Assembly (NCBI GenBank): GCA_016906335.1
Contig: JADEYG010000005.1
Coordinates: 78,501 to 142,500 of the forward strand
Length of the DNA: 64,000 nucleotides
Reading direction: 5' to 3'
Source: Novakomyces olei
Lineage: Eukaryota; Ascomycota; Novakomycetes; Novakomycetales; Novakomycetaceae
Part shown: positions 206 through 30,921 of the stretch, one piece after another
Numbering within the stretch: position 1 is the stretch's first letter
How the letters are laid out: each line of letters opens with the position of its first letter
The notes under the pieces: generated by a model
Databases searched by the model: none
The model's input: the letters and a program-made list of their open reading frames with translations, nothing else
Told to the model about the DNA's origin: nothing
Program-made: the position numbers and the translations under genes

Positions 206-1274
206 ATGGGATCTCCAGTGGCAAGGCCGCGACCGGCGCCTATTGACCCGTCCTACAAGCCAACTGCGTCAATTGCAAAGATCCCAGCGAGCTCAGACAT
301 TTCAGATATTCTGGAGGTCATTGAGCGGGATGGCGGTGTTATTCTGACAGATTTTGTTGCCGAACCCGACTTGGCGGCCGTCGACGAAGAGCTCGATAGT
401 TACAGCAGCAAGCAGGTCCGTACGACAGACAAGAGCGCACTGCATATAATCCCAAAAGAAACGCTTGCTATTCCCGGTCTCGTCGGCAAGTCCGACACAA
501 TGGCCCATATCTGCAGCGAAAACCCTGTACTGGAGCAGCTGCGCACATACATTTTGGAGGACAAGTTTGACGTTAACCGCGAATCGTACATTGAGAAGAA
601 CACGATTGATCCAATTTTGAGCATTAGTATTACTCTGCACATCGGGTATGGCGCTCCTCGCCAAGTCTTGCACCGCGACGATAACACGCATGGCACTAGA
701 CACAGCGAAGAGTTTAATCTAAGGAAAGCCGGTCAGTTTGCCTGCTTGATTGCCGGCTCCAAGACCACTAGAGAAAATGGTGCTACTATGTTTATTCCGG
801 GCTCGCATAAATGGGACGACAAACGGGTGCCCCGCTTGGACGAAGTTTGCTTCGCAGGTATGTTTTATTTACAACGTTTAGACGACTAAATGTTTCCCCA
901 ATCAAAACATGGAAAAACGCAAATTACAGCTAGATATTCAAGCTCATTATATTGGTTTTGATTTTATTTCTAACCCGTTTATAGAAATGGAAAAAGGATC
1001 AGCACTAATTTTCCTGGCCTCCTGCTACCATGGGGGAGGCCACAACGCCGTACCCGACGAAACCCGTAAAATTCACGGACTTTTCTTTGTTCGGGGTACA
1101 ATGCGGACCGAGGAGAACCAGTTTTTGGCTATACCCAGAAGCAAAGTTTTGAAAATGAACGACAAAATGCTCACGCTTCTGGGCTACAAGAAGCCTACAA
1201 CTGTTTTGGGCATTGTTGAAAACGAAGATCCTGCTCAAGATCTGCAGGGAGTCTTTGCACGCAATGCCGCTTAA
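206..1274 (+). CDS. PhyH-family Fe(II)/2-oxoglutarate dioxygenase
   Basis: Two exons, 206-857 and 985-1274, give 313 residues. The 127-nt intron has a GTATGT donor and a TTCTAAC branch site. The protein belongs to the phytanoyl-CoA dioxygenase family, non-haem iron enzymes that hydroxylate small molecules using 2-oxoglutarate and O2. The HxD iron ligands are His156 and Asp158 (HRDD). The family motif ENGATMFIPGSHKW follows, and the second iron ligand is probably His233 in YHGGGHN, just after the splice junction. Length is normal for fungal PhyH enzymes of the FtmOx1/AusE type. There is no signal peptide, so it is probably cytosolic. The substrate cannot be read from sequence. It sits at the edge of a cluster of oxidative and transport genes and converges with the zinc-cluster regulator gene. 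A relic of a paralogue lies at 4103-4129. Confidence 0.88.
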
Positions 1275-1785
1275 ATTTTTGTTGGAGGGATATGATAGAT
1301 GAATTTGTTTAATGTCACTTTGTGCAGAGAGAAAAGTTCCGAATCGTGGTCTCAAATTACAATAGATGGCGTATTATATAAAATCTCAACACGTAATAGA
1401 TTCATGTCGGCAGTAACAATTTCAAAGTACTGTCTGCGGAATTATTGCTACTTTCAAAAGTAGAAATAACAAAAGCACATAGTTACATTTGCATTCAATC
1501 AAGCCTTCAGTCCAAATCATATTCAGGTAAAACCGACCGTTGAAATAATTCTCTCTAAAACTGTCAATTTACAGTCAAACCCCAAGTGCTGATTTTGAAA
1601 ACACAAAGGGTAGACAAAAGAATGTACCAGCGATTCTGAACTTTCCACATTCATGTCCAATTGGCTTAAAATAGCTAGCAAAGAAAACTTGACAGGCACC
1701 CATTTATCTGGTATCTTTAATTTCTTCATTCGCTAACAAAAAGACTAAATTTACAACAAGGTCATTGCTAGAGAGTACACTGTCC
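1275..1785. other. Convergent intergenic region
   Basis: This 511-base AT-rich stretch lies between two gene ends. I see no gene, repeat or RNA. A 68-codon open frame at 1523-1729 (minus) has no recognisable motif and is probably chance. Confidence 0.6.
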
Positions 1786-3717
1786 CTAGGCATCCTCACC
1801 GAAAAATTCCAAATCAAACTCATCAAACCCGGGAGCCAAATCATTTGGAATAGTACGCGCGTAATAATCGCCAGCAGCTTCAGAACCAGCAGCTTCAGAG
1901 CTACTCAATAAAAGCTCAAAAGACGAACAAAAAGACACAGCTTTGGGGTATTTGTCCACCATGGCCTGTAATGACTGGCCACATAGCCCAATACATTCAT
2001 TCATTTCCGCTTTTTTGGGATTCTGTAGAATATTAAAATTCATGCGCACGTAAATCAACGTTGTGCCTGCTAAAAACAAATTACGTGAATGCTGCCAATA
2101 AACCCTAATTTTTCGTGCATCATGTAACTTTTTGTAAAGGCATATTAAATTAATGCAGATATTAATTAGAGCAAGCCATGATGCTGGGTTCGGAGAAGGT
2201 ATTGCCGGTGAAGGTGCGTGCAAAACGCGTAAAAGATTAAGGTAGATAAGGTCAAAGGATTCTACTGGTGTAGTAGCATTTTCATTTGGTATTGCTGGCC
2301 TTTGAGAATGCCACCACTCAATTTTCGCATTAAAATTAGTGGCCCAAGCTTGAACATTAAAATCTCCATAGAGCTGAGGAGTTTTCATATACAATACTTG
2401 GTGGGCTTCAGACTGGAGTTGACGGCATCTGAACCAATGAAGAGCACACTTCTTTTTTTGCGGTAGTAAATCCTGCATATCTAATATTCCATCTTCGCTT
2501 ATATATGCATCGTTTACGGTAGACGGAAACTAGAATTTAGACAAAGAAACTAAAATTGAAGAAGTTGAGCCAAATAAATAAACAAATATAATATAACATC
2601 GCGAATAAAATAAAAGAAGGGTTTTATGAAAACGGGTGTGGTCAAAGCCCAGAGGTTAACAAAACGTACAGGGAATCACTGCTATAATCGACCTTACTTT
2701 TATATCAATAACTTCATCTGGTATGAAAAAAGGCCGTCGAAAAACAACGCATATTGTCCGTTCCATCTCGTAAAGCGTCCAAAATACTCTGCGTCGTCTG
2801 TCAAAGTACAGCACATCTTCATCTCCATCTTCTGCTACTACCTCACGGTGAAGGTCTAATTGAAGGGCTAATCGAGCGCAGAATCCTGTGGCCTGCCACA
2901 TCCCTCCACAATTTGGATGTATAAAGCCATGCTGGCATAGCAAAAGCATACTTTCAAGCCCGTTCAAGTCATCCCCAAAAACTTGAGGCACCACAAACCG
3001 AATAGCCAAGTGAAAATGGTCTTCGGAGCACGAAAAAGGGACTTTAAGGTCCTTTCTATGGCTGATCAAGTAGGCAATCGCAAACACGAGATGTAATTGG
3101 AACAGGTCCTGCCTTAGTTCAATAGAATCTTCGATGTTTGTAGACTCCTGCATATTGTAAACATTACGCACGCGATCCATGAATGTCTGGAACTTGAACA
3201 ATGGAGTTCCAAACTCGGCAAAGTCAAAATACGCGGTAACAAGAGACATTGCCGTATCAAAAGTCGGAAGGCTGAACTTGGTCTGCCGCTCTATCGGTAA
3301 CGGATCGTTTGTAGGTATGCCTACTGCACCAATCAGAGCTCTTCGAATTTCATCAGACACGCTAACTTCCGATGCTTCCTGGCTCGATTTACCACTCTTT
3401 AGCGGGACGGCTTTGCTGGGTTTGCTGCCGTCATATTGAGCAACTTTTTGCTCAAGGTCGTAAAGGTAGCTTTAGCGTTAGTTAGCCAAGTAAACAGCAA
3501 TAGTGTTTGCCAACCTTCGAGATATTTCACGGCCCGTGATACTGTCAATGGACAAGCAATCGGCACCTGCCAATTCACAGTTTGTGCACGCCTAATCGCA
3601 ATTCAATATCAATATGCACATCAGACAAAATCTTACGGGGAGTCTTTGATCGCACCGCTTTTTCCTTTTCCGACATCGTGAACAGGAAGTCAAGTTTCCG
3701 CGCGCGACAGAGGTCAT
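1786..3717 (-). CDS. Zn2Cys6 transcription factor with fungal-specific regulatory domain
   Basis: Four exons on the minus strand (3717-3637, 3591-3515, 3469-2698, 2529-1786) give 557 residues. Introns are 45, 45 and 168 nt. The first two interrupt the DNA-binding region, and only after splicing does the complete motif appear: C-x2-C-x6-C-x6-C-x2-C-x6-C (SCSRCRKRKKRCD...PACTNCELAGADC), followed by TGREISRSYLYDLEQKV, the usual linker and coiled coil. The middle region (around 100-310) has the hydrophobic pattern of the fungal-specific transcription factor domain. The exon 3/4 join restores IDIKFPSTVNDAYISEDG, matching the family's 'P-x-V-x-D-x-YI' segment. The acidic C-terminus carries a duplicated EAAGS (15-nt repeat, 1871-1900). 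It is the only regulator in the catabolic neighbourhood and the best candidate to control it. Its target genes and inducer are unknown. Confidence 0.9.
1871..1900 (-). repeat. 15-nt coding tandem repeat (2 copies)
   Basis: Two 15-nt copies (1871-1885 and 1886-1900) differ only at the last base. They encode the repeated EAAGS near the C-terminus of the Zn2Cys6 factor. Confidence 0.75.
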
Positions 3718-4167: not shown

Positions 4168-5638
4168 TCACAAATGTGCCCTTAATTCACGCATGGCATC
4201 TTTTAGCCGCGTGGTCTTGTCTATTGTCTGCTCCTGGCCCGGTTTCTTCCATGCCCATAATTTACAAAGCTCTGGGTCTAATTTACCCTCCAAGCGGTCG
4301 CATACAAAAGAACCGATGAGTGGTAGAAACTTCCATCCGTGCAAAGACCCGCAAGTAGCTGCAAAGAGTCCTTTAACGGCAGGATGAGGAGCAATTACGA
4401 AATTGCCATTAGGCGATGTGGCATCCCTGGCATTATTAGCACAGGCATTGATAAAAGTGTAATAGTTTAGAAGGGTCGCTCTCTTTTGTCGCTCTCTTTT
4501 GTCGCTATTTACGTTTCCCCTTATTTTCCTTTACTTACCAGCAAAGTTTTGTCGCAACAAAAGGACGTTCAGCGAGGGAGGGCATCATTTCGTGCAGATC
4601 TTTGCGTAAAGCGTTTTGAATGTCCATCGGAACTTGATTCTCCTTGGATTTGCTGAGAATTTCAGGCAAAGATAAGCGAGTCTGAAGCCCCCTTTGCTGC
4701 TCCGAGAAGCGAGGATGCGGGACGCTGACCGTGTTACAGAACCCGGGCCATCTTCGCAAGATCTTGACGCGTCCCTTGTGAGGGGGAAAGAGGTTAAACC
4801 CGGTACTCAGGTTTGTGGTAATAGACATCTTGGACCACTTTTTTTCTTCTGCCTCGGTGACGGGGATAAAGGCTACGGGAATAGCATAGACTTGCGTCTC
4901 TGACTCGAGATCGAGCAGCCTTGTTGACCAGGCTCCCGCAGCGACAATCACGAGCTGAGCATAAAGCACGGAACCGGATTCCAATTCAACCCCCGTAACA
5001 GCTTGGCCATCCGGCGTATAAATCAGTCTCTGCACTGCCTTTCCCGTGACAAAATGAATCGTTTTGTGGGCGAGGCATTTGTTATAATAAACACGGATAC
5101 ACTCCTCCGCGTCGGCCATAGAGGCAGACAAATTGCAGTACCCAATGTTCCACTGAGCCGGCCGGCCCAGCTCGGCCTCAGTAGGGCACTGTGCGTCTTG
5201 TCCGTGGATTCTAGTGTAAATCTCCCGGCGGCCCGGGCTCAAAGCGACACGCTGATTTGCGCGTTTAGCGTTCTCCAGTCCCGTCGTCCATTCGTCCTCA
5301 GCGTCCCCACGTGTGCCATCGTATACGAATGACATGCCCTTGTTATACACATGCTTAGACAGCTCTGGGTCCTGGGCAAAGGCCTGCTGGGCTCTTTTGG
5401 CCAGCTCAGTATAAGTCTTATCCGCATAGTCGGCTCTGACGCACCGATTCAAATCCGTACTTGCTCCGTCCGAGACCGGCGGAGTCTGACGGTCAACGAC
5501 GGTAATTCTCGTGCTCGGGTACCGCTCAGCGAGTTCAAGTGCCGTAGAGAGCCCGAAAACGCCGGCACCAACGACAATAACCGATTCTGGTGGACTCACG
5601 GCCATACCTCCTTCTAACGCTGAGCCAATCGGTACCAA
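4168..5638 (-). CDS. FAD-dependent amine oxidase (fructosyl-amino-acid / saccharopine / sarcosine oxidase family)
   Basis: Exons 5638-4539 and 4426-4168 give 452 residues. The intron runs 4538-4427 and has a GTAAGT donor. The N-terminal dinucleotide-binding motif is VVGAGVFGLSTALELA (about 20-36). Splicing restores the motif LCWDATSPNGNFVIAPHP, in which Cys366 aligns with the cysteine that holds FAD covalently in monomeric sarcosine oxidase and amadoriases. The following CGSLHGWKFLPLIG is the usual GSxHxxKFxP segment. Fungal members oxidise secondary amines: fructosyl amino acids, saccharopine, pipecolate or sarcosine. The exact substrate is not readable. Met1 and Met12 are both possible starts. 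The gene is divergent from the MFS transporter gene across a promoter with zinc-cluster-type sites, which suggests co-regulation. The intron holds a 13-nt tandem repeat. Confidence 0.9.
4474..4508. repeat. 13-nt tandem repeat inside the FAD oxidase intron
   Basis: The unit GTCGCTCTCTTTT appears about 2.5 times within the 112-nt intron of the oxidase gene. It leaves the donor, branch and acceptor signals intact. Confidence 0.6.
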
Positions 5639-5673
5639 ACCCCAATCTTATTGCAGCCAAGCGGCGACGAGCA

Positions 5674-5681
5674 TTTATATA
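5674..5681 (-). promoter_or_regulatory. TATA box of the FAD oxidase gene
   Basis: TATATAAA on the minus strand, about 36 bases upstream of the start codon at 5638. Confidence 0.45.
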
Positions 5682-5747
5682 GACGCTAAAAGTATGCACA
5701 GGCGGAGGACGTGTGCCGCCAATCAACGGTCCTCGGCGACGTCCTGT

Positions 5748-5769
5748 CGGCGATCGCCGTCGGAGGCCG
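5748..5769. promoter_or_regulatory. Zinc-cluster-type binding palindromes (CGG-N6-CCG and CGG-N3-CCG)
   Basis: CGGCGATCGCCG (5748-5759) is a perfect 12-base palindrome with the CGG-N6-CCG layout bound by Ppr1/UaY-type Zn2Cys6 dimers. It is followed directly by CGGAGGCCG (5761-5769), an inverted pair with N3 spacing. They lie about 110-130 bases upstream of the oxidase start and next to a Zn2Cys6 regulator gene. Binding is inferred from layout only. Confidence 0.45.
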
Positions 5770-6079
5770 ACTCGTGCCACTAATGATAGAAAATGTAGTA
5801 CTAGTTCATTATTATATCAGAGAAAATCACGTAATGTGTTTTATTCAAGGTTTACAGTATTGGCAAGAGGGATTCAGTTTAAAAATTTATAATGCTGAAC
5901 CTGTCACTTTGCTTGAAGGCACTTTTTACACTATCGGCACTATCGGCACTCGGCTACGCTTTAGCGTTGCGATTGCCGGTTCGGCGATCAAAAGTTCCTT
6001 ATCCGCTTGCTTTGTCAAACGTGCACGTATTACATAATCTGCAGTTGGAGAGATAAAGTATGGCTGTAAACAAGTATTT

Positions 6080-6199
6080 TTTAATTTAGTGGTTTTACTG
6101 TAATTTAGTGCTTTAATAATATTTAGTGCGTTTAATAATATTCGGTGCTTTTACTGTAATTTAGTGAGGCTCTTACCTATTATTCAGTGCTTTTACTAT
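6080..6199. repeat. Degenerate ~19-nt tandem repeat (about 6 copies)
   Basis: Copies share ATTTAGTGCTTTTACTGTA-like sequence, with some reading ATTTAGTGCTTTAATAAT. They lie in the divergent promoter 350-470 bases upstream of the transporter gene. Function is unknown. Confidence 0.6.
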
Positions 6200-6510
6200 A
6201 GAAAAATAACCATATAATCCAATTTTCTATCGCGATAAGAGCTCTGCACGTGTGCCTTATCTACGAACCTTCAAACGGCGGTGAATGGAGGCGCGACTGG
6301 CCAAAGTCTAATGATATCATACGGTACGCAATAGCAGCAATTACTATCGCGATAACGTGACTCTTTGAAAATTGCGTTATACATGATTTGCTGCAAGTGC
6401 GATGCGCGGGGCCTACAGCGGACTTCGGCGATCGGCGACAACTGGACGCGATACCGTTATCGACAAAACTTTATCAACGACAGAACCTGAAAACTAGGGT
6501 CGAGCGGCTT

Positions 6511-6518
6511 TATATAAA
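6511..6518 (+). promoter_or_regulatory. TATA box of the MFS transporter gene
   Basis: TATATAAA lies 36 bases before the ATG at 6554 and supports that start. Confidence 0.5.
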
Positions 6519-6553
6519 CACATGAAAACTGACAAACTCACAAAGTAGACACG

Positions 6554-8522
6554 ATGGAGGATACCATGAAGACTCTGACGACCCAGCAAATCTCTGACGA
6601 AGGTCAAAAGATCGCTGGCAATGTGGAAACAGTCTACACCACTGAAGACGACATCAAGAAAAAGAGCGGTGGCGATGCGGCTTTGCGTTTCTTGCAAGAA
6701 AACGAAGGCACTTTTACCTTTACGGTTGAAGAGGAAAAGAAGGTTTTGCGTAAAATAGACTGGCACGTTATGCCTTTGCTTTGCATGCTTTACGGATTGC
6801 AGTACTTGGGTACGTGACTACCGCTTGGCAATTTAATCCTAACTTTTTTCAAAGACAAGATATCTCTAAGTTATACGACCGTCATGGGATTGGAGGAGTA
6901 CGCGCACTTGGCCGGGCAGGACTACAGTTGGCTTTCTTCCCTGTTTTATTTTGGGTACCTCGGATTTGTTTTCCCTGCCAGTATGATCTTGCAAAGGTTT
7001 CCCATTGCCAAAGTGCTCGGGAGCTTTCTGCTTGTGTGGGGGAGCTTGCTGCTTTTACATGCTGCTGCATCCAATTTTGGTGGGTTCGCCGCCTTGAGGT
7101 CTGTTCATACCCAAAAACGCGATATGTGACGAGTTTACTGACTTTTGTAAAGGATTCTGTTGGGCATATTTGAGAGCGCAATTACTCCAGGATTCATGTA
7201 CGCAGTTCTGCTTGGGACAACTGACTAATATTAGGCTGATTACTTCGCAATGGTACCGGGCTTATGAACAGACGACTCGCACTGGCATATGGTTTTCTAT
7301 GAACGGTCTTGCACAGATGGTCGGCGCTGTTGTGGGTAAGTTTTGGCTTTCTTTCATATATTTCGGATTGAAAAGTCTGACAGATTTAGCGTATGCTATT
7401 GCGACTGGGTCTCAAAACAACAATTTTACGGCTATTCCAGCGTTCAAATTCATCTTTATTTATCTCGGTGGTCTGACAGTTATACTCGGCTCAGTGTTTC
7501 TGTTACTGTTCCCCGACTCACCGGCAACCGCAAAATTTTTAACCAAGGAAGAAAAGATGATTGCTCTTGAGCGTATCAGAGACAATAACCAAGGAATTAA
7601 GAATGAAGAATTCAAGCGGTACCAGTTTATCGAAGCTTTACGAGATCCTTTGACCTGGCTTTACTTCTTTTCTTCGTTCATTCAGAATATTGTATGAAGA
7701 CTTTACTGCATAAAACTTTGTGCTAACTTTACACAGCCAAATGGTGTTATGAGTAACTTTACAAGTCTAATCATTGATGGCAAGATTATGATTCATATTC
7801 ACTTTGCTAACGACTTTCAGGGTTCGGATTCTCCGATACAATGTCTCTTCTGCTGCAATTGCCCGGTGGTTTCATTGAACTGACGACCTACATGTTTTTC
7901 GCTTGGCTTGCTGATCGAACCCGCCAAAAGAATCTGTGGGCAATTCTCTCTCTTCTCCCTACTATCGCCGGATTTGCAATCATGGTACCAGTCCATGGTC
8001 CTCATGATCGCGGAGTACAGCTTTTCGCGTATTACCTCACGTATACGTCGTCTGCAATTTGGCTGGTCATGCTCAGTTTGATTTCTACTAATACTGCCGG
8101 ATACACAAAGAAGGGCACAGTGAGCGCTATTAACTTGTAAGTGATTTGAGCTTCAATTGTTAAACTTTTTTTTTTCAATTCGTCTCGATTACTAATTTGA
8201 TACAGGATTGGATATTGTCTCGGAAATATTGTTGGACCACATTTGATCTCGGCTGACGACGCACCTACTTACATTACAGCAAAGACGGTGGTATGTTAAA
8301 CGGCAATTTTGTTATATTGTGAACATATCTAACTTTCAGGTTCTGGTCTTCCTTATCGTGACTGTTGTGTTTCAAGGTGTAATATGGCTTTACTGCTTCT
8401 TGGTAAACCAGCAGAAAAGACGCAGGCTGGCTGAGGCGGGAGATAGCTATACACGACAGGCAAATCAGGAATTTCTTGATTTGACGGACAGAGAAAACTT
8501 GGAATTTCTGTACGTCCTTTGA
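6554..8522 (+). CDS. MFS transporter, Dal5/Tna1-like anion:cation symporter family
   Basis: Nine exons (6554-6809, 6855-7098, 7153-7197, 7235-7335, 7390-7691, 7737-7779, 7821-8136, 8206-8290, 8340-8522) give 524 residues. Introns are 37-69 nt. The sixth (7780-7820) has a GC donor (GCAAGA...TTTCAG). The spliced protein reads as one Dal5-type carrier, including LRKIDWHVMPLLCMLYGLQYLD, LGIFESAITPGFMLITSQWY, GIWFSMNGLAQMVGAV and the late SALIN/YCLGNIVGPHLI helices. Twelve membrane segments are expected. Known fungal relatives import allantoate, ureidosuccinate, nicotinate (Tna1) or vitamins. The substrate here is not determined. It shares a promoter region with the FAD amine oxidase, so it may import that pathway's substrate. 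Confidence 0.92.
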
Positions 8523-9577
8523 ATTACATATATTATTTACGTACTTTTTTATTTGGATTATATGGAGGTTGTTTGCTGGGATAAGAATTGTACTTTTTAA
8601 TACATATGTTTATTATTTATTTATCTCTCCCCATGTATACACTCAAGCCCTGTTTTGTACAGACAAGTCAGCGAAACGGAGAAAAAGCATTTAAAATAGC
8701 GAAATAAAAAAGCGAAGAGGAAGTCTAACACTTGTTGCCAATGAATGTTGATGGGCCGGTTGAGTAAGGATATAAAATTCGTCTCGTAGAAAAACTGCAT
8801 CGCTACTTATAAAGACAAGCCAACTAGAAGGGCGATACTAACCTGGCTTTGGAAATGCAATTCCATCGTGCAGGTACCATGTAGTAGAGCGCATAATTAT
8901 AATCAGGAAGTGGTTTTGATTGGAAACTAAAGCAAAAAAATAAAAATCTGAAACCAAACAGAACAAAACAAAACATACGGAAAATGAATACTGACAGAGC
9001 ATCGCACATGATATAACTAATAAATAAATAAAAAACAATAATTTGCTCAATGTTAGGCCACGGTTAGTTTTCTTAGGTTGTATAGGGGGAAAATCAAGAA
9101 ATTTACCAAAATTTTGTGTAAGATAGGCAGATCAAGAGTAAGATGACCGCAAAATTCACGGTCAAGTTTCCAAAAGTTACGCGAAACGGATCATAAAACT
9201 CAGCTTTGGGTATGGCTGCCAATAGAAGTCAAGAATTCGAGTACAAAATTTGAGTCGCTCAATAATACGCATATGACAAAAGCATAGATTGAATTTGTAC
9301 TTGGCAAAAACCAGTCATAAAGCACTTTTAAACTAAAATCATCTTTGGCTCTTTGCAATGTTGTCTTTACTCCATATCGAAAGGAACAGCATTTGTTTTC
9401 CCCACATCATCTATATTTTTGGTCACGTGCTTTTTATATATAAATCTCAATGAATCGGATTATCCTTCTCTATACAAAATTATCTACAATGACGTGGGCG
9501 TCATTGACGATGAATTAACGTACAGATCGACTTTATCAGGGCTTAACAAAAAGAAACTGACTGGCAAAAATTACAAG
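8523..9577. other. Intergenic region upstream of the APC permease
   Basis: This AT-rich gap of 1,055 bases follows the MFS gene. Several short frames are low complexity or chance. I see no gene or RNA. Confidence 0.55.
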
Positions 9578-16650: not shown

Positions 16651-17658
16651 ATGTTGGCAAGCAATGCAGTCGATACAGCCAGAATGCCGACAAGCGTACA
16701 GTTTGATGCAGAGCGCCATCTTGCCATCGAGCTGCCGAAGCATATCGATCGGCTCTCCGATTTGGGTCTCGCTCAGGAACAAGAACTTTCAGACTTTGGG
16801 GCGTGTGCGCCTTTCCCCGTATTCACTCGCGAGGCTGTAGAGCTTATGCGGAACGATATCCTGAGCAAACCGGTTCTGGACAACTGCGTTTTTTCGCGGC
16901 CGGCTGCTCCTTGCTTTGTCAGGGGTTATGCTGGACGGTACTCGAGCTTTATCCGCGATGCTTGGATGCACCCAAAAGTACTGGCAACGCTTTCCAGCAT
17001 TGTCGGCCGTGAAGTTGTGCCTGTGTGTGACTATGAGATCGGGCACACAAACATTCAGCTGGACAATTCCGGTCTGGACGGACTGGCGTCGATACCCACG
17101 GCAATCGACACCCGTCGGGCCGAAGCTAATGTGAGCGAGAGTGAAGTGGACACTGCCCATTCGTACGACAGCAAACCCGTACACGACTGGCACTATGATC
17201 AGGTGCAGTTTGTAGCGCTTTTAATGCTTTCAGACACGTCCAGCATGCGCGGAGGACATACGGCCATTCGCTGTGGAGACGGAAGTGTTCGCAATATTCC
17301 GTGCCCTGGGCTAGGCCAGGTAGTGATTATGCAGGGTGGCCGAATTATGCACGCTGCTACCCGGTCAACAGCCCTGCCGGGCACTATTGCGCCAGAGCGA
17401 ATTGTCAGTGTGACTTCTCTGCGCTTTAAGGACCCTAATCTTCCCGATACAACGAACTTGCAAACCGCTCGGGAAGTGGAGAACCTTCAGGAAGCTTGCC
17501 GTCAGTATGCGCTATACCGAACAGAGATAATGTGCCAGAGACTCCAGGCTGCCATCCTGGCAAACAACCTGCAGACAGCAGCATTCGATCGTCAAGCATT
17601 CGCTTCATACTTGAACGAACAGATTTCGTTCATGCAACATACGGCCGCGCAAATGTAG
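16651..17658 (+). CDS. Fe(II)/2-oxoglutarate-dependent oxygenase, fungal HWHYD-type
   Basis: One exon, 335 residues, ATG in a good context (CCAACCATG). The iron-binding core is HDWHYDQ, with His180 and Asp182 as the HxD pair and His234 in RIMHAATRS as the distal ligand. The arginine of the following PERIVSVTSLRFK region is placed to hold 2-oxoglutarate. The GGHTAIRCGDGS strand between them is typical of a widespread but poorly characterised fungal oxygenase family. It is not close to the PhyH enzyme at 206. There is no signal peptide. It converges with the FAD monooxygenase gene only 301 bases away, and the two may act on the same pathway. The substrate is unknown. An HxnY-like role is one possibility but is not shown by sequence. 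Confidence 0.85.
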   Translation: MLASNAVDTARMPTSVQFDAERHLAIELPKHIDRLSDLGLAQEQELSDFGACAPFPVFTREAVELMRNDILSKPVLDNCVFSRPAAPCFVRGYAGRYSSFIRDAWMHPKVLATLSSIVGREVVPVCDYEIGHTNIQLDNSGLDGLASIPTAIDTRRAEANVSESEVDTAHSYDSKPVHDWHYDQVQFVALLMLSDTSSMRGGHTAIRCGDGSVRNIPCPGLGQVVIMQGGRIMHAATRSTALPGTIAPERIVSVTSLRFKDPNLPDTTNLQTAREVENLQEACRQYALYRTEIMCQRLQAAILANNLQTAAFDRQAFASYLNEQISFMQHTAAQM

Positions 17659-20031: not shown

Positions 20032-20939
20032 CTCCAGTCTTGCTCGGTATTGCTTTACCGGTTTCTCGCAGAATATTGGTGCGAGCTTTATCGGTGTAAA
20101 AGAAGTAAAGTATTTCTAACAAGCTTTGCTCCTGGAATACTTTCGAGTCGAAATCCTTTAGGAAATTCAGTAAATTGGATTGTTTTCGTCTATTAGATAA
20201 AATGTCAATACCGCGTGTAACATTCGGCAATGTTTATTCCATTCAGTGAATTAGTTCCCAATAGAGAAACGTCTACCAAAAATTTGGATTTTGTTTTACA
20301 ATGTAAAGCGATGATATTGCCATATTTGCCTTTATATGGCTTTTATCCATCAATCGGCAAATATCATTATTCTTGAGGGTAAATATTATTCTATTAATTT
20401 TAAAGCGTTTGTCCTAAATTACGTTTTGTCGTCTTTTACAGCGATAGGAAACGTCCGACAGAATAAATTCGTACATATTAAAAGTCCACTATTTATAGCA
20501 CCCTTATCATATCCCACGTAAGATGTGGGGGCCAAATAGAGATTCCACAAGTACCGTTTCCGTACACGAAAACTATTTATCCGTCAAATTCTCGCGCGCC
20601 AAGTAAGCCAACCCACCGGTGTGAATAAATCCTCAAAGTAGAATACATTAATCGAAAAGATTTCGTATGTACTTGCGCATTGTTAATAGGTGCCTTAACT
20701 AGGTCAATATTAATATTTATGAACACATAGAATGGCCAAGCTATTATCATTATTGTCTAGTGTTATCGTTAAGCGTTGACATTAAAAGATTTTGTGCGGG
20801 GCGGGCGGCTATTATGAATACCCGCCCGTCCAATTTTCGTGTCTGATAACCCAATCTCACACTCTTAGTCCTCCTCTATTGCGAGACTGCTGAATTGACC
20901 AGCCTTGATTGTAGCACAGCCTTTTGATTTCCCGCGTCA
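20032..20939. other. Divergent promoter between FAD monooxygenase and DUF1989 fusion gene
   Basis: 908 bases. No gene, repeat array or strong zinc-cluster pair recognised. A GC-rich segment (about 20796-20832) precedes the fusion gene. Confidence 0.5.
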
Positions 20940-22637
20940 ATGCCGATTCTCAAAGCGCGCAAGGCGGTGGCCTTTCAGGTCCAAAAAGGCCAAACTGTCA
21001 CGGTGGTGAACACCTTTGGCAAACAGGTAGTGGACTTTTTCGCATTCAATCCTCAAGACCCACATGACTACCTGTCCATGGTCCACTGCCGAACCATTCT
21101 CTTGAAGGTCTCTCTGAGCAAAGGCGACAAACTGTACTCCACACGTCGAAAGCCGATGCTTACACTGGTCGAGGATACAACACGAGGAGTCCATGACATG
21201 ATCTGGTCTGCTTGTGATCCGGAGCGGTACCATATGCAGGGCTTTCAGGGCTACCACGATAACTGTACAGACAACATGCACAAGGTGAGTGGTTTGGTGT
21301 TTTGCTGATAGTGCGGATCGCTGACGTCAGGCGTTGAATGAATATTTCCCGAATTTCAAAATTGCCGACGACTGGGTCCCCGATCCCTTGAACTTGTTTA
21401 TGAATGTTGCCATTGATCACCATGGCGGGTTGAACGTGAAAACTCCGACTAGCGAAAAGGGCGAATATGTCACGCTTCGGGCGGAGACTGATTTGATCAT
21501 TGTCATGAGCTCTTGTCCACAGGACATTGAACAAGTAAATGGAGGCGAACCAACTGACTGCGAATATACTGTCTCTGGAGGAAGCTCTCAAATCGCACCT
21601 GTGGTTAAAGCCAAAAGAGTTCCACGAGTCAAAATTTCGTTTTCCGTTGATTTTGATGGAGTTTCTCACTGGCTTGGAACTGGCTGCCATCCGGATAATA
21701 ATATGGCCGATTATAGCTCCGGTATATTTTCCGGCCAAGTTGGAGTGTACCGCCTTTTGGCACTGTTTAAAAAACATGCTATAGCGAATAAGGTGACATG
21801 GTTTGTCCCTGGTCATACGACAGAAACTTTCCCTGACGCAGCTCGGGCAGTTCTCGAATCGGGAGCGGAAATCGGTCTTCACGGATACTCACACGAGGGA
21901 ATCTATCAGATGACAGAAGAGCAGGAAAAAGAAGTTCTTTTGAAATGGTAGGTTGGCCCGAGAAGAATACGCTTTGACACGAACGATAAAGATACGGGAA
22001 TCGTGCCAACAAAATAAATTTCTGCTGCTAACAATATAGTATTGACGTTGCTACCAAACTGGTCGGTAAAAAGCCAAGGGGCTACAGAGCTCCTATGTAT
22101 ACGATTCGGGAAACTACAGTTAAGTTGTTGAGAGAGCACGAGCTCTTGTACGATTCGTCTCTGGCTCATCATGACTCACAGCCATATTTTACGCCAAACG
22201 ATCCGCCAATTAAACCAATCGATTTCTCTCAGCCAGCTTCGTCCTGGCTTAAGCCCTCTGAGATTGCCTCCCAAGAGTACCCGAAAGATCAGCATCCTTT
22301 GGTAGAGCTTCCCTGTGGCTGGTACAACGAGGACATGATGCCGCTGCAGTACCTTCCACATCTCGCGAACAGTATGGGATACATCCCAACACGCTCTGTG
22401 GAGCAAATGTGGAAAGACAAATTCATGTGGCTATGGAATAACGGCAAAGAGGGTTCAGAGTTTGCGGATTTCGTTTTCCCGGTTCTAATTCACCCTGATA
22501 CCAGCGGAATGGCTCACATTATTGGGATGATTGATAGATTCGTGGGCTGGTTGAAGAGTTTTGGTGAATCTGTAGAGTTTTGCACTCACGAAGATATCGC
22601 CAGAGGTTGGTTGAAGGCGCAGACTCAACGCTCATAG
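20940..22637 (+). CDS. DUF1989 (urea-carboxylase-associated) domain fused to a PuuE-like polysaccharide-deacetylase-fold hydrolase
   Basis: Exons 20940-21284, 21331-21947 and 22040-22637 give 519 residues. Residues 1-200 are a DUF1989 domain: LYSTRRKPMLTLVEDTT, GVHDMIWSACD, YHDNCTDN, VPDPLNLFMNV and LIIVMSSCPQD. Bacterial DUF1989 pairs act beside urea/guanidine carboxylase, and CgdAB are carboxyguanidine deiminases. Residues 212-519 are a NodB-type deacetylase fold of the PuuE/HpPgdA branch: SFSVDFDG (Asp222, Asp224), GHTTETFP, HGYSHEG (metal-binding His299 and His303) and RGYRAPMY. There is no signal peptide, so wall chitin is an unlikely substrate. Both halves belong to families that cut C-N bonds, so the protein may open a cyclic imide or ureide and deaminate the product. 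Cyclic imidases such as HxnM belong to this fold group. Function is inference. Both exon joins are in phase. Confidence 0.88.
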
Positions 22638-23040: not shown

Positions 23041-24168
23041 TCAGTCACCTCCAACACTACTCAAAAGCTCGGCGGACGGCATGAAGAAAACTGTTCCTGT
23101 TAACGGAGTCGAGAAGTCAAGAATTCGATCGTGGGATCCTGGAGGGTCACCGACAAACATGCGCTCCAGCATTTTTTCCGTTACCCAGAGTCGGGCCGAG
23201 TAGCCAATGAAATAAGTACCAAACACTCCATGGCCTGGCGACCCAAAAGGCATATTATCGCGTACGATATCAAACTCCTCCCCTTGTTCGTTTTGTACAG
23301 TAGCCAGAGTTTTGTGTGATTTTTGTTCGTTAGCCTTTGCATCACCGAGCTCTACGTTATCAAATTTCCGTCTGCCGATAATTCTCTCCTGTGCCTCTGT
23401 TGGAAGTTTGTTCCAGGCATCCAAAGCATGCACGTATTTTTGTACAACACAATAGGTCCCACTGGAGGCAGCTTTATCCAGCTCCTGTGTGACTAGTACC
23501 GTCTCTGGAACTGCGGGTCCGACAGGATTAGCAGTACCATCTACAAAGCCGAGGAGATCGCGAGCATCAAAGTAGCGAAACCCCTGTGTCTCATCCACGA
23601 CTTTTACTGAAGCCGCTAATGACTCCAAGATCAATCGCTCGAGTTCAAAACAAAGATCCTGGCGATCAGCCCTGATATGGAAAAGAAGATCGCCCGGCGT
23701 TGAAGGCGCTGTATGCTTATTGCCTTTAATCTCTCGGAAAGAGTGCAATTCTTTCGGCCGCTGGCAACCCTTCATAACAGAATCCCACGCATCACTGCCA
23801 ATGCCGACAGCACAAGACAATTTGGCATCGGCATCGCGAAAGCTGACATTTTTAACCAAATCTGCAATGCCGCTGACACAGTCACGTACGCTTTCAGCCG
23901 CGTCCGGTGCCTTTGTGATTTCACATACTAAAAAGGTGGCAAATGATGTGAGCGGGAGATCTACTGCCGGCTGCGGTGATGCTGAGGCTGCCATGTGACA
24001 ACTGCTGTCCACGAATGATCGTTTAATTGGCGGCCTGAAAGCTGATTTGCTGCGTAAGCCTTGCTGCTGTAATGGGCGAAGCGGTACAGTGCTGTAGACT
24101 CTGCGAATCTGACCCTTTGAATGAATGCTAAACACCGTTCTCGCACGGATCGCTGACAAATTGATCAT
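23041..24168 (-). CDS. DyP-type haem peroxidase (YfeX-like) with a mitochondrial-like leader
   Basis: One exon, 375 residues. The DyP signature GFVDGT (207-212) supplies catalytic Asp210. His285 (KSHKTL) is the expected proximal haem ligand, and Arg303 (IVRDNMPFG) the distal arginine. GTYFIGYSARLWVTEKML is the conserved C-terminal helix. The class oxidises dyes, phenols and porphyrinogens with H2O2. The first roughly 65 residues lie outside the domain. They are rich in Arg, Ser and Ala with almost no acidic residues (MINLSAIRARTVFSIHSKGQ, then IRRVYS), a typical mitochondrial presequence. An internal Met59 in front of the domain could give a cytosolic form. It converges with the DUF1989 fusion gene. 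The haem ligands are all present, so an active enzyme is expected. Confidence 0.9.
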   Translation of the reverse strand: MINLSAIRARTVFSIHSKGQIRRVYSTVPLRPLQQQGLRSKSAFRPPIKRSFVDSSCHMAASASPQPAVDLPLTSFATFLVCEITKAPDAAESVRDCVSGIADLVKNVSFRDADAKLSCAVGIGSDAWDSVMKGCQRPKELHSFREIKGNKHTAPSTPGDLLFHIRADRQDLCFELERLILESLAASVKVVDETQGFRYFDARDLLGFVDGTANPVGPAVPETVLVTQELDKAASSGTYCVVQKYVHALDAWNKLPTEAQERIIGRRKFDNVELGDAKANEQKSHKTLATVQNEQGEEFDIVRDNMPFGSPGHGVFGTYFIGYSARLWVTEKMLERMFVGDPPGSHDRILDFSTPLTGTVFFMPSAELLSSVGGD

Positions 24169-24526: not shown

Positions 24527-26392
24527 CTAGTAGCCCAGGCCACCGCGGGCGCCGACGTAATCAACAAGGTCAAAAAGACTCTTCTTATAATGCCTTTCCA
24601 TGGTGGTAAGATTGACAGTTTGCATGCCAAAGTGGGAATCATAGTCACCAAACTCCCAATTGTCCATAAAACTCCAGGCAAATGCGCCGGCCACGTGAAC
24701 GCCATCCTCCCAAATCGCTTTCAAAAGTTCAGACATGAAGGATAGGTAGTACTGGCTGCGTGGGGTATCAAACAGCTGGTCAGGCAGCTCTTTATCTACT
24801 TCGCCAAACACGGGGAATCCGAATTCGGAAACGATAATGGGAGTCTCAAACGTGTTCCAGAGATAAGACAGGTATTCCCGGAGATACGTGGGCGTGTTGT
24901 ATACGTACGAGTAGGAGCGATATCCAATGTTCCAACCAAAACTATTTGTCCACTCCTGTACCACACAGTACGGATACAGTGGGTTAACACTAGCATTTTG
25001 TTGCACACAGGCCTCAATGCCCTCAGCGGGCACATACACGGACGTAGCAGTATAGGCATCAATACCGAAAAAGTCGGTAGTGTTGCCAATGTACGCCAGT
25101 TCCTCCGCGCTCAGAGGTTTGGCCCCCGGCAAAGTTGTCAGCAAGGCGTCCGGATACTGCTGACCTAGGCAAATGGGGTAGGCAAACCCACCGAGTTGCA
25201 TGTCGTTAAACCTTTTGGCCGCAGCAACTTCCGTTTCGTTGTCGGGGTGTTTGGGCACAGCAAAATTGTCGTTCAACTTGAATCCAACTTGTCCAGTGCC
25301 ACACAGGGTGTCGTGATAGTAATGGTAAAGAATTGCGTGGGCATGAACAACGTTATCGATACCGGCAAAGTCGTACGAGTAAAGCAGAGGCTCGTTTATC
25401 GTTACCCAATAAGGTACACGGTCGGCAAAGTGGGTGAACAGAATCTTGCCATAATGGACAAAAGCTTCAATGAAATCCGGGTGGTGGTAGCCACCATTGG
25501 CATTTCCAATTGGTGGAATGGCTGTAATGTTTTCATTTTGAACGAAATAAAGCGGTGTGTCGAAATGCAGCATGGAAACAACCGGGACCATCCCCACCTG
25601 CAAAACGTAATCGATCAAGTCCTGATAGTGTTGAATACCCTGCTGGTTGATTGGTGTTCCCGGAAGGGTAAAGGGGAGAATGCGTGACCACGAAATTGAG
25701 AAACTGTAATATTTTATGCCCATCGCCGCCAGACGGTTGATGTCCTGCTTGTACAAGTAGTAGCTTTCCGTGCCCACGTAATCCTTAGCACGGGAATCAG
25801 GTATAAGTTTTTCCATGATAGAAGGTCCACGGCCTTCCAAACCAATTGCTCCCTCAATTTGAGCAGCAGATCCAGCCACACCAAACAAAAAGTCTGGGGG
25901 GAAAGTGTAATTGTCAGTAGGGCCAAAGTAATCAGCTGGCGGAAGTATCAATTCGCTGGACGGGACTGGAGTTGGTGCAACCGTAGCTGAGTAAATCCCA
26001 GCTTGCGTATAGTTGATTAGCTTTGCATTTTGCCAAAGCGAAGACCAGGCTGCCTGGCCGTAAGGGTCAGCCCAATCTTGAGCAGTGATTTGTGTCTGGT
26101 TGGGCAGCCATGATCCATAGGTGGTCGTTATCAATGGGAAGTCGAGGCATTGCTTAGCTTCATCGTACGAAGCTGCGTACGTGGGCGTAGCGGTGGCCGG
26201 GGGAATCGATGATGCATAGCGAACAGTATCGCTTAACGAATACGAAAAGGGTTTGTGGTAGTACGTGGGACAGGCAGTAGCCCTCACACGGTCCGCCGTT
26301 GTTGTGACATAGATCTCTTGCGCCTGTGCCAGGGCAGCCAAGAATAAAATTAATATCATTTTTAACATCTCACAGAACCGAAAGCTCGACAT
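24527..26392 (-). CDS. Secreted family GH1 beta-glycosidase
   Basis: One exon, 621 residues. The N-terminus has a signal peptide (core MILILFLAALAQA), then a roughly 150-residue extension rich in Ser, Thr and Pro before the GH1 barrel begins at FLFGVAGSAAQIEGA. The acid/base is Glu334 in TINEPLLY. The nucleophile is Glu523 in IVSEFGFP, where most GH1 enzymes read ENG. Many Asn-x-Ser/Thr sites suit an extracellular glycoprotein. The product is expected to release glucose or a related sugar from beta-glucosides. Among the cluster genes it could free an aglycone for uptake, but that link is inferred from position only. Met1, Met9 and Met12 are all possible starts, and the later ones shorten the signal peptide. 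Confidence 0.9.
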   Translation of the reverse strand: MSSFRFCEMLKMILILFLAALAQAQEIYVTTTADRVRATACPTYYHKPFSYSLSDTVRYASSIPPATATPTYAASYDEAKQCLDFPLITTTYGSWLPNQTQITAQDWADPYGQAAWSSLWQNAKLINYTQAGIYSATVAPTPVPSSELILPPADYFGPTDNYTFPPDFLFGVAGSAAQIEGAIGLEGRGPSIMEKLIPDSRAKDYVGTESYYLYKQDINRLAAMGIKYYSFSISWSRILPFTLPGTPINQQGIQHYQDLIDYVLQVGMVPVVSMLHFDTPLYFVQNENITAIPPIGNANGGYHHPDFIEAFVHYGKILFTHFADRVPYWVTINEPLLYSYDFAGIDNVVHAHAILYHYYHDTLCGTGQVGFKLNDNFAVPKHPDNETEVAAAKRFNDMQLGGFAYPICLGQQYPDALLTTLPGAKPLSAEELAYIGNTTDFFGIDAYTATSVYVPAEGIEACVQQNASVNPLYPYCVVQEWTNSFGWNIGYRSYSYVYNTPTYLREYLSYLWNTFETPIIVSEFGFPVFGEVDKELPDQLFDTPRSQYYLSFMSELLKAIWEDGVHVAGAFAWSFMDNWEFGDYDSHFGMQTVNLTTMERHYKKSLFDLVDYVGARGGLGY

Positions 26393-27476: not shown

Positions 27477-29333
27477 CTAAAATTTGTCAGTCTTTGGATC
27501 GACCGTAACTTGGACGACTTGACCGTCAATATAATCTTGCTCATAGCCTTGCTGAAGTGATTCCTGGTGCGGAAAGATATGGCACAACAAAGTGTACAGT
27601 CCGCCCCCAACCGCAATTCCTACGAGGTAATTCAAGTCATAAATATACTGTGCTCCGCCTATATTGACATTGGGGTTGACGCTATTGATGAGGCCCGGCA
27701 TGTTGAGCGCAATTGCAGAGACCAGTGCAATGACAGCACGGAAATTGGTGCCTTTGTAATAACGATAGCATCCCCTCGGATCATAGAGAGCCGGCACATT
27801 AATTTTACCCCGTTTCACAAAGTAATAATCTGCAATACAAATTCCAGAAATAGGAGCAAGAAATATGGCGAGAGCAGATATGAAAGTGACAAGCTGCGGC
27901 GCACTACCAGAAATTTTCCAGGGGACCATGACCCAGCCGCCTACGATTGTGCCAATCAGCGCAGAGCGGCGAATATTCAAATAAGATGGGTAAAGCGTCG
28001 ACAGGTCGTTGGCAATGGAAATTACGTTGGCGGACATGTTTATACCAATCTGTGCAGCACAAAAGGAAATGCCACAGAAAAAAGCAGCAGCCCGTCCTGC
28101 AGGACTTGTCCAGTGGCTCAAAAGCTCTGCAGGACTCCAAATAAAAGTCCCGTACAGCACTCGGCCAGCACTACAGGCAATCATGCCCATTGTACCGATG
28201 TAAACTCCCATTATTGGTAAGCACGCAGCTTGTAATACCTGGCTTTTCGGTTTTGCAACGTAGCGGGAAACATCTGCGATATTGGTCGCCATTGTCGCCC
28301 ATCCACAGGTTGTCTCAAATACCATATAAACCGTCATCCATCTTCTTTCTGCTCCTTGAACAGTGGCGCTTTGATGAAACATTTCACCAGAACTTCCAGC
28401 CCTCACTGTCATACCAATAACAATCCCAATCGTGGTAGCTAGCATCATAACGGTTTTGGCATGGAAGAACCATCGCATCTTGTGTGGAGGGATAAGAACA
28501 AATGGCAGTTGTATTGTCCAAAAGATGAAATGAGCAACTAGTGTTTTCGAATCCACATCCTGGCTCGCAGGTACAGGGTTGTTTATGTGTCGGAACGACG
28601 GCCATATGGCAGCAATTACCTCCACCATGACTTGTGAGCCACTGTACGTTTGTAATGCATGCCAAAATATGGCAGTAACTGTTTGTTAGGCGCGTGCGCG
28701 ATTGACAATGGTATAAATGAGCAGGCATAGCGGAATCATAAGCGGAGAATAGTTAGATTTGCGCATTCTGCGTTGAACGACAAGTATTGAAATTTCGATT
28801 CGTAGTCATAAAAGACGTAAATTGGAAGTTTAAACTTACTTATTCGAATGATGACAACTACACGTGCAAAATAATACCCGAAACTGCTGCGGGCTTGGAC
28901 TGGGAAGGGAATACGTAGCTGAGCACCGATGTAACCATTAAGCACGACCGGGACGGCAATGAAAGCATCGCCAATGGCAGTGCAGTAGAGAGCCTCGCGA
29001 AAAGTCAAGCCCACCTGAAAATTGGTTAGTTTTGTCTTTGCTCGATCGTGGTAGATGGGTATAATTTCAAAAGGTTCTTGCACTTGATTATAGAATGAAT
29101 TGCGATACCCCAATAATAGTAGACATGGACTCCCATCCTTGAATAGACAGAATATCACTAAACCAGTAGGCAACAACTGTATACGGTTGCCATGTTTGTC
29201 GTTCTTTTGGCGTTGGATCAATATCGATATTAGTTTTGACATACGCGGGCGCTACAGCGCTCGGCTCTGTCTGCAGCTCCCAGGCGCGCACGCTGGTCAG
29301 CCGCCGCTTTAATTCCTTTTTGCTCCACAACAT
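27477..29333 (-). CDS. NCS1-family permease (Fur4/Dal4/Fui1-like)
   Basis: Exons 29333-29109, 29014-28840 and 28678-27477 give 533 residues. The ATG at 29333 begins MLWSKKELKR. The family entrance motif is PTPKERQTWQPYTVVAYWFSD, and exon 2 holds LNGYIGAQLRIPFPVQARSS. GWATMATNIADVSRYV and GLINSVNPNVNIGGAQYIYD match the Fur branch, whose members carry uracil, allantoin, uridine, thiamine or related ring compounds by proton symport. About 12 membrane helices are expected. Specificity is not readable. Length and motif order are normal, and both introns close in frame. The upstream region (29461-29525) has two GATAA copies, in line with nitrogen control. A ring-compound importer fits the nearby oxygenases and hydrolase. 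Confidence 0.92.
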
Positions 29334-30318
29334 ATCTCTTTTGGTCGGAAGCACCGAGTCTGATCTTGATTTATATAGAATCCTCCTCCTGGTTATTTCA
29401 TAATCCTATTTATCTCAAGCCTCGCAGAATACTAAATTTATACGCCAGAAGATTCATCATCGGATAACCATCGCGCTTAAGCCAATCGGGTAATTTGACA
29501 GCTCTAGCAGATAAAGATAACCCACGCCGACGGAGTGGGGCGATATAGATAGGGTTTATTTCTTAGGGTTTTTTGGAGATAAAGAGGGCTTCATCGTGGA
29601 AGAAGCATATTTTAAGGGGCGGAATATTATGAGTAGAATATTATGGAGTAGAAGAAATAAAAAAAGGAGACGATCAAATTTTGAGCCTCGTTTTGTATTA
29701 CCAGGAGGTGCTTCAAATGAGCAACAACGAGCAAACGGTAAATTGAGCAGTACGAGAATTGAATACTCTGAATGCATTTAGTTTGGCAATTTTGTATTAT
29801 CAAACTTTACGTTATCGTCAAAATTTCACGACTTGTTTATCTCAGGTACTAGACACGTGTAACCCCGTCGGCTATCCAGTCATTCGTCTATAACACAAAC
29901 GGTTAGACAAGTCACATAGAGCGCCTATTATGTGAACGACTGCAGGGTTAAAATTAAGATTAAGCCATCCAGAACTACAAGGTCATTTCTCCTGTTTATT
30001 GTTGTTCGTAGGACAAATGAGGGAAAAAATGCATTAAAACCGATTTGTTCAAATTAAACAGCCAAAATGAGATATAAAATTAGACAATCCGCTACTGGTT
30101 TGAATCAATCCGAATAAAAGACTATGGCCACAGCAGTTTATGATATGCCTTACATTAAATTGAGCCTAGACCTGCTCATATCTTATATTTATTATTTGAT
30201 GTTAATCATTGCGAAGCATGTACTGAACAAGATTGGATTGATCCTCGAAATATCACCATCCTGAAGATTCTCAAATAATGCTTAATTAATTAATATCCAT
30301 CTGCTTGGAGATCGAGTC
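29334..30318. other. NCS1 promoter and 3' flank of FMN reductase gene
   Basis: 985 bases. It contains GATAA copies near 29511-29525 (AGATAAAGATAAC). Short frames at 29556-29781 overlap on both strands and are probably chance. Confidence 0.5.
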
Positions 30319-30921
30319 TCAGATATCCTTGTCCTGGAGTATTGCGAATAATTTCCCCAAAGCACTATCTAATGCCTTTGTTGATCCGTCAGATTCCCAA
30401 GTCTGAAGAAAAGTGTCAGGCAGCTCATGAGGCGGCGACGGCGTAACTTTTATCTGAAAAGAAGGCATTGGTTCAACAGCTAAAAGTCCCACAGCATGAG
30501 AAATTTGTTTCCAATGCTGAGCGGCCTTTGTTCCGCCGTGGCCACCATAGGTAACGATCACGACTGGTTTGTCTTGCCATTCGTGATACAGCAAATCAAT
30601 TGCATTCTTCCCCACAGCCGGTACAGACCAATTGTATTGAGGCGATACAATGATAAAGCCAGTGCTTGCTTTGACGCGACTTGACCAGTCACGTGTCTCC
30701 TCTTTGATGTAATGTGGAGTCGGATTACTCTTAGGAAGAGCTTGTGGAATATTGGTTTCTTCATAAAAAGGTAAACGGTTCTCTGCCGCCCCGAGATCAA
30801 CAGTTTCTAGCTCAATGTTTAGAGGCTTCAGCGCTTGGGCTGCGTTCAACACATACTTTGTTATTAGAGGTCCTATGCGTTGCGGCCTTCCACTGCAGCT
30901 GATCACGAGGACGCGTCCCAT
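30319..30921 (-). CDS. NADPH-dependent FMN reductase / flavodoxin-fold oxidoreductase
   Basis: One exon, 200 residues. It has the NADPH-dependent FMN reductase fold: a first strand and phosphate loop VLVISCSGRPQRIGP (4-18), SPQYNWSVPAVGKNAIDLL (the conserved YN-x-S-xP-x-x-KN segment binding FMN, about 93-111) and VVIVTYGGHGGTKAA. The class reduces FMN, quinones, azo compounds or metals with NAD(P)H in the cytosol. Length is normal. It is the last gene of the accessory half. A role in supplying reduced flavin is possible but unproven. Confidence 0.9.
   Translation of the reverse strand: MGRVLVISCSGRPQRIGPLITKYVLNAAQALKPLNIELETVDLGAAENRLPFYEETNIPQALPKSNPTPHYIKEETRDWSSRVKASTGFIIVSPQYNWSVPAVGKNAIDLLYHEWQDKPVVIVTYGGHGGTKAAQHWKQISHAVGLLAVEPMPSFQIKVTPSPPHELPDTFLQTWESDGSTKALDSALGKLFAILQDKDI

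Follow-up and report, generated by a model that had tools for sequence, protein, structure and literature searches.

A candidate nitrogen-regulated choline/betaine-type amine system in a gene island of Novakomyces olei

Gene content of the island

We studied a set of catabolic, transport and regulatory genes of the ascomycete Novakomyces olei (genome of 14.34 Mb in 15 contigs), which an initial annotation had described at positions 206-30921 of a 64-kb stretch of contig C5 (C5:78501-142500; hereafter the window, whose positions are given without prefix). The DNA examined was C5:1-202500 except the N stretches C5:142501-152500 and C5:185001-192500. Gene models come from a purpose-built spliced gene finder and gene ends are approximate; models and gaps containing N, including a model spanning C5:142501-152500, were excluded from the counts. 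Gene families, candidate targeting ends and promoter sites were established by sequence comparison. Since genes of the same kinds extend leftwards for about a further 42 kb, the window set makes up the right (centromere-side) portion of an island that spans C5:36.7-109.4 kb and whose left edge lies 36.7 kb from a telomere-like array at the start of the contig. Twenty-three of the 29 island models match a profile of a transporter, a metabolic enzyme or a regulator (Pfam or NCBIfam, one GH1 match being below its cut-off), and ten of the 29 are transporter genes. The others are one HNH_2 protein, two orphan oxygenase-like paralogues, one model with no match and two unscanned ones (the Pfam scan skipped left-flank genes 16 and 21; gene 20 was scanned and had no match). 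The limits first proposed for the cluster were not borne out, as its core reaches left to a choline oxidase and a betaine aldehyde dehydrogenase (BADH).

These two genes are adjacent and divergent, just left of the window. The choline oxidase (C5:67.9-69.7 kb) scores 402 bits against PDB entry 2jbv, the next group scoring 217, and BADH (C5:71.1-72.8 kb) scores 705 bits with NF009725, above the cut-off of 593. When aligned to 2jbv, the choline oxidase retains H99, E312, H351, V464, H466 and N510 and has a threonine in place of S101, all of which we take to be active-site positions. A genome search for its GMC relatives showed one other match, a distant one. An APC permease with a Pfam match follows at C5:73.4-75.4 kb.

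The third oxidation enzyme of the core is an oxidase dependent on flavin adenine dinucleotide (FAD), encoded at 4168-5605 on the minus strand. It belongs to the DAO-family amine oxidases, in the fructosyl-amine/sarcosine oxidase superfamily (PF01266, 108 bits). Two relatives of it, at C9:1626864-1628193 and C10:1413-2741, have first pieces with identical scores; one of them stands at a contig start, and a recent duplication is possible. The three core enzymes carry C-termini of the peroxisomal targeting signal type 1 (PTS1): ARL for the choline oxidase, AKL for BADH and AHL for the 4168-5605 oxidase. With the pattern [SAC][KRH][LM], applied to proteins of score above 20 and more than 100 amino acids (79 of 101 kept), such ends are found in three of 28 island proteins and in four of 79 overall, the fourth being a DAO-family oxidase on contig C7; 28 of the 29 island models entered this count, a poor APC model being left out. 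Because the PTS1-type ends are shared, the 4168-5605 oxidase is tied to the choline pair by its likely location and not by a proven pathway.

At the left end of the window lies an oxygenase of the PhyH family, dependent on 2-oxoglutarate (2OG; 206-1274, plus strand, exons 206-857 and 985-1274; PF05721, 71.9 bits). Its best PDB matches are the swainsonine enzymes SwnH1 (9osa, 366 bits) and SwnH2 (9otb, 340 bits), the next best reaching 85 bits, and a genome search for its relatives showed no other match. The initial annotation counted two 2OG oxygenases, of which this one stands; the other, at 16651-17658 on the plus strand, is not established, having no Pfam match even at an E-value of 10. It is likely an oxygenase, as predicted from its HxD...H...R pattern. 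It has two paralogues, at C5:76818-77950, next to the choline genes, and at C7:105889-107001, and H181, D183, H234 and R250, that is HxD...H and the downstream arginine, are invariant in all three. A weak match to 2OG-FeII_Oxy_3 (PF13640, E 0.15) was obtained for one of the three members, other than 16651-17658, and a PDB search with the family returned ten matches at chance level (best E 0.26). No bacterial or viral relatives appeared in pattern-based, non-exhaustive contig scans. This three-paralogue, Pfam-orphan 2OG-oxygenase-like family is apparently undescribed. Its C7 member lies close to the end of that contig, in another group of genes that look catabolic (C7:96001-116000, loci L029-L030). 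The group also includes the C7 DAO-family oxidase, whose C-terminus is SKL, an IPNS-type 2OG oxygenase and, by eye, a Zn2Cys6-like gene.

The single Zn2Cys6 factor of the initial annotation (1786-3717, minus strand) was confirmed, with both Zn_clus (PF00172, 35.9 bits) and Fungal_trans (PF04082, 57.1 bits) over their cut-offs. Its finger region is split by introns 3591-3635 and 3470-3514, the second picked by eye from eight open options. Models and profiles likewise upheld the amine-type FAD oxidase, the phenol-hydroxylase-like monooxygenase, the fusion of a DUF1989 domain to a deacetylase fold, the DyP peroxidase and the FMN reductase. The monooxygenase, a phenol-hydroxylase-type FAD aromatic enzyme in five exons (17960-20031, minus strand; PF01494, 223 bits; PF07976, 30 bits), scores 171 bits with VibO and 168 bits with phenol 2-monooxygenase; these searches used a hand-joined version of 556 amino acids, one residue shorter than the final model.

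The DUF1989-cyclic-imidase-type fusion (20940-22637, plus strand) is a protein of 519 amino acids with an open spliced frame across three exons (20940-21284, 21331-21947 and 22040-22637). It matches PF09347 with 178 bits and PF01522 with 57 bits and, in the PDB, 3qbu (211 bits, HpPgdA-like domain) and 3oru (156 bits). PF09347 has one further match in the genome, a short piece on contig C3. The metal residues of its second domain, a D-H-H motif that we take to be that of the deacetylase fold, are conserved in the alignment. So are, in the alignment to Tdm, the metal-site cysteines (three, for zinc), the histidine and the aspartates; the register of that alignment was set by hand, with an offset of 22 in the PDB chain. 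The NCBIfam models UAAP1 and UAAP2, presumably the two subunits of carboxyguanidine deiminase, gave 68 bits against 206 and 105 bits against 285, respectively, and this identity was rejected for the fusion. Carboxyguanidine deiminase is itself described as a DUF1989 protein (available text of PMC11271267), like the first domain of the fusion. The Tdm metal-site residues are discussed in PMC12560246; according to the available text, this trimethylamine N-oxide (TMAO) demethylase shares with the fusion the DUF1989 domain and the aligned metal residues. It differs in combining DUF1989 with GCV_T, for which the fusion has no match, carrying instead a domain of the HpPgdA/HxnM type; the NF053776 score of the fusion is 124 bits for a cut-off of 1100. 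No bacterial relatives were seen in pattern-based, non-exhaustive contig scans, and we found no open-access literature joining DUF1989 with polysaccharide deacetylase, which is weak evidence of an undescribed fusion. It is apparently undescribed so far.

Promoter signals

GATAAG is the core site of nitrogen control by GATA factors. The promoter gaps of the island, 19,356 bp in total, contain 38 such sites and those of the control, 21,683 bp in total, contain 12 (p=3e-5), so the density is about 3.5 times higher in the island. In the convergent gaps of the island GATAAG occurs twice in 5,643 bp (p=0.003 against the island promoter gaps). It also tops both 6-mer rankings of the island intergenic DNA, against control DNA and against Markov expectation, with 39 sites in 26,651 bp for 23 in 47,826 bp of control intergenic DNA; the corresponding counts are six in 13,913 bp on the telomere side and six in 8,509 bp in the C7 set. 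The controls for GATAAG and for the promoter gaps were the C5 right flank and loci L018-L022, with models scoring above 10 for these loci and models of any score for C5; the ends of genes 29, 32 and 36 were set by hand, that of gene 32 (APC) being guessed.

A second signal, CGG-N10-CCG, is present once per promoter in an unbroken row of five divergent promoters, which separate choline oxidase from BADH, an orphan paralogue from the PhyH oxygenase, the 4168-5605 oxidase from an MFS carrier (5606-6553; site at 5703, with three GATAAG), a permease from the orphan gene at 16651-17658 (15289-16650; site at 16087, with five GATAAG) and the monooxygenase from the fusion (20032-20939; site at 20045, with one GATAAG). 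Over the whole island, six of ten divergent gaps, one of nine tandem gaps and none of ten convergent gaps contain it, against one site in 11 divergent, one in 12 tandem and none in 14 convergent control gaps. A run of at least five at any of 21 spacings was obtained in 3 of 2000 dinucleotide shuffles and in 3 of 1500 trinucleotide shuffles, and everted and direct arrangements gave no run above two. A narrower operator built from two of the sites, CGGNATTNNTTTACCG, had 20 genome matches (its two source sites, exact, and 18 with one mismatch) for 19 of the reversed control, and was given no weight.

In Saccharomyces cerevisiae, CGG(N10)CCG is the site of Put3 (PMC5729217). Judging from the available text of that work, the resemblance lies in the spacing and symmetry of our candidate operator and in the association of a zinc-cluster factor with a nitrogen source; the difference is that no proline-pathway enzyme was recognised among the five pairs.

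Interpretation and competing explanations

The reading that we favour, with middling confidence, is a nitrogen-regulated, partly peroxisomal choline/betaine-type amine system extending from C5:67.9 kb to window position 22.6 kb. Upon nitrogen limitation and in the presence of an inducer, the five divergent pairs would be switched on by a nitrogen-control factor of the GATA type together with a zinc-cluster factor that acts at CGG-N10-CCG; the obvious candidate for the latter is the Zn2Cys6 protein of the island (1786-3717). Choline might enter through the APC permease and be converted to glycine betaine by the choline oxidase and BADH, both predicted to be peroxisomal. The 2OG-oxygenase-like enzymes could then attack N-methyl or ring-amine substrates, stripping or hydroxylating them, and the putatively peroxisomal 4168-5605 oxidase would act last, on a sarcosine-like secondary amine, to yield a usable amino acid. 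Finally, the monooxygenase and the DUF1989-imidase fusion may form a second module that oxidises, deaminates and opens a nitrogen ring. In this scheme, factor binding, co-expression, the import substrate, the ring module and all conversions beyond glycine betaine are what we infer. The co-regulated nitrogen-catabolic set of the initial annotation is likely, the evidence being that of the promoters, namely the GATAAG excess and the CGG-N10-CCG run; its organising idea of one ring-degrading pathway is not supported, the core extending to the choline pair.

The closest known arrangement is that of codA and badA of Aspergillus fumigatus, with the consecutive tags AFUA_8G04090 and AFUA_8G04080 (PMC4551469), where, in the available text, a choline oxidase gene likewise neighbours one for betaine aldehyde dehydrogenase and glycine betaine is proposed as a nutrient under nitrogen starvation. 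Unlike codA/badA, the pair described here belongs to a larger group of genes that shows a CGG-N10-CCG run. The two enzymes of the island pair bear PTS1-type ends.

Several observations weigh against a choline/betaine system. BADH scores 610 bits with TIGR01804, under the cut-off of 669. The 4168-5605 oxidase is nearer to fructosyl amine oxidases (124 bits) than to monomeric sarcosine oxidases (50 bits), and several relatives of it are encoded at other loci of the genome. There is no demonstrated choline link for the PhyH oxygenase, the orphan paralogues, the monooxygenase or the fusion, and an hhalign comparison of the orphan family with the PhyH protein was null, as was its negative control. 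To our knowledge, no fungal demethylation of glycine betaine by a 2OG oxygenase has been described, hence this step is a conjecture, and we found no fungal enzyme for the steps after glycine betaine in the open-access literature. With respect to the promoters, control DNA also favours them for GATAAG, at a lower level (one site in 8,784 bp of convergent gaps), so that only the density distinguishes the island. The inverted repeat with N10 had been noticed before testing, and the shuffles correct for spacing and not for orientation. Finally, the six-base CGG-N10-CCG motif is also found inside many exons (counted in the C5 right flank alone for the control); as it is short and present in exons, single sites carry little meaning.

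The island could instead be a loose subtelomeric collection of independent nitrogen-scavenging genes under general GATA control, with neither a common inducer nor a common pathway, an explanation that we regard as a plausible contender though on the doubtful side. Its setting fits, with telomere-like repeats at C5:1 and a FunK1-type kinase and retroelement frames (by eye) within the first 36 kb, as do the ten transporters among 29 models and the existence of a second mixed set near the C7 end. GATAAG density is similar in the divergent gaps left of the window and in the window core, and CGG-N10-CCG is found in just two of the six divergent gaps left of the window. A loose collection accounts poorly, however, for CGG-N10-CCG in five divergent promoters in a row and for PTS1-type ends on exactly the three core oxidation enzymes. 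Kinship with the nicotinate (hxn) regulon of Aspergillus had been suggested as well. At the level of families, some likeness stands: the available text of PMC8478523 and PMC9304392 describes a cyclic-imidase-type domain, a phenol-hydroxylase-type monooxygenase, carriers, a 2OG oxygenase and an amidase, and genes of the HxnM, HxnV and amidase types are named for hxn in PMC8478523. The 211 bits of the fusion to 3qbu reflect an HxnM-type HpPgdA-like domain, the monooxygenase is of the HxnV type, and an amidase, which had been reported as missing, is present in the island, although left of the window by about 22 kb (C5:54752-56374; PF01425, 299 bits). The regulators are nonetheless of different classes, Zn2Cys6 in the island and Cys2/His2 for HxnR (available text of PMC5746545), the HxnM-type domain is here fused to DUF1989, and the 206-1274 enzyme is a SwnH-type PhyH protein, HxnY being nearest to thymine-7-hydroxylase (PMC9304392, available text). 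In agreement with the earlier statement that no xanthine-dehydrogenase-like enzyme was seen, MoCoBD_1 (PF02738, the domain of the xanthine-dehydrogenase-type HxnS) had no match in six frames of the whole genome at an E-value of 0.001. Neither the old yellow enzyme HxnT nor HxnX nor HxnW was recognised among the island models, and no genome search was aimed at them. On the regulator class and the lack of a MoCoBD_1 match we rejected membership of hxn, and we consider it highly improbable that the island is a relative or remnant of that regulon.

Still less credible, in our opinion, is a swainsonine-like alkaloid pathway, an idea raised by the closeness of the 206-1274 protein to SwnH1 and SwnH2. 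The APC permease at C5:73.4-75.4 kb and an aminotransferase found in the Pfam scan (49131-50760) could be matched to SwnT and SwnA by description alone. The strongest ketoacyl-synthase match of the genome (C7:2317323, a frame of 2615 amino acids) has no match beside it to NAD_binding_4, which we take to be the thioester reductase domain of SwnK, and a swainsonine cluster is thus not supported. In the available text of PMC5473758, SWN is defined by SwnK, SwnT has a choline transporter among its relatives and SwnA is an aminotransferase. The genome holds a SwnH1/SwnH2-type dioxygenase with no recognised SwnK-type synthase. The same ketoacyl-synthase search returned a frame of 1912 amino acids on contig C2, which we guess to be a fatty acid synthase.

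If the favoured choline/betaine reading is true, the known fungal choline-to-betaine pair would be extended to a whole regulated amine-scavenging system, with candidate enzymes for the steps beyond glycine betaine, and a function would come within reach for the Pfam-orphan oxygenase-like family and for the DUF1989-imidase fusion. It predicts five divergent gene pairs under one zinc-cluster gene. A more complete version, which we consider unlikely, would take choline all the way to glycine, by way of glycine betaine, inside and near the peroxisome. The orphan family (the 16651-17658 protein and the paralogue beside the choline genes) would then supply the glycine betaine N-demethylase, and the fusion would be a two-step enzyme that would deiminate a cyclic amidine (e.g. 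creatinine) and open the resulting imide, both arms meeting at sarcosine before the PTS1-tagged 4168-5605 oxidase.

Remaining genes and surroundings

The four importers reported in the window do fall into four distinct Pfam families (MFS, APC, AA_permease and NCS1), the APC model being incomplete. They are the MFS carrier at 6554-8699, labelled Dal5-like in the initial annotation (plus strand; PF07690, 89.6 bits), the APC amino acid permease at 10245-12447 (plus strand; PF13520, 66 bits on a piece of 255 amino acids), the amino acid permease at 13124-15288, labelled YAT there (minus strand; PF00324, 383 bits) and the NCS1 permease at 27477-29333 (minus strand; PF02133, 268 bits; TIGR00800, 293 bits, below the cut-off of 353). 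Further genes on the minus strand encode the DyP peroxidase (23041-24168; PF20628, 173 bits; PF04261, 102 bits), a GH1-like enzyme (24527-26392) and the NADPH-dependent FMN reductase (30319-30921; PF03358, 97 bits). The GH1 assignment is backed by TIGR03356 (198 bits, E 1.9e-58), at a score under the cut-off of 478.5. The promoter gaps of the DyP, GH1 and NCS1 genes contain no GATAAG, and CGG-N10-CCG occurs among them in that of GH1 alone (at 26988), hence the membership of these three genes in the regulon is doubtful. The promoter gap of the FMN reductase has two GATAAG.

Beyond 31.7 kb, everything had been called housekeeping, which suits five of the six models scanned with Pfam, the others being judged by eye; the sixth belongs to an NCS2-type purine/uracil permease at 54947-57559, split into two models, the first of which (54947-56530) matches PF00860. 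Rfam and tRNA scans of the 64-kb window gave no match. Elsewhere in the genome, loci of the urea-amidolyase-type CT_A_B family lie at C12:1358649, C7:50789 and C13:861, and for two of these loci a contig end is no more than about 51 kb away; they would allow the use of urea-like products, and nothing connects them to the island.

To the left of the island, C5:1-36 kb carries two FunK1-type kinases, one of them Pfam-scanned (PF17667), and HNH-like proteins recognised by eye. Three retroelement frames (by eye) lie at C5:10351-25398; two of them are nearly identical and oppositely oriented, and the third is different. The contig begins, at C5:1-200, with a telomere-like array of the 10-base unit CTAACCCTAA, unlike the plain TTAGGG hexamer.

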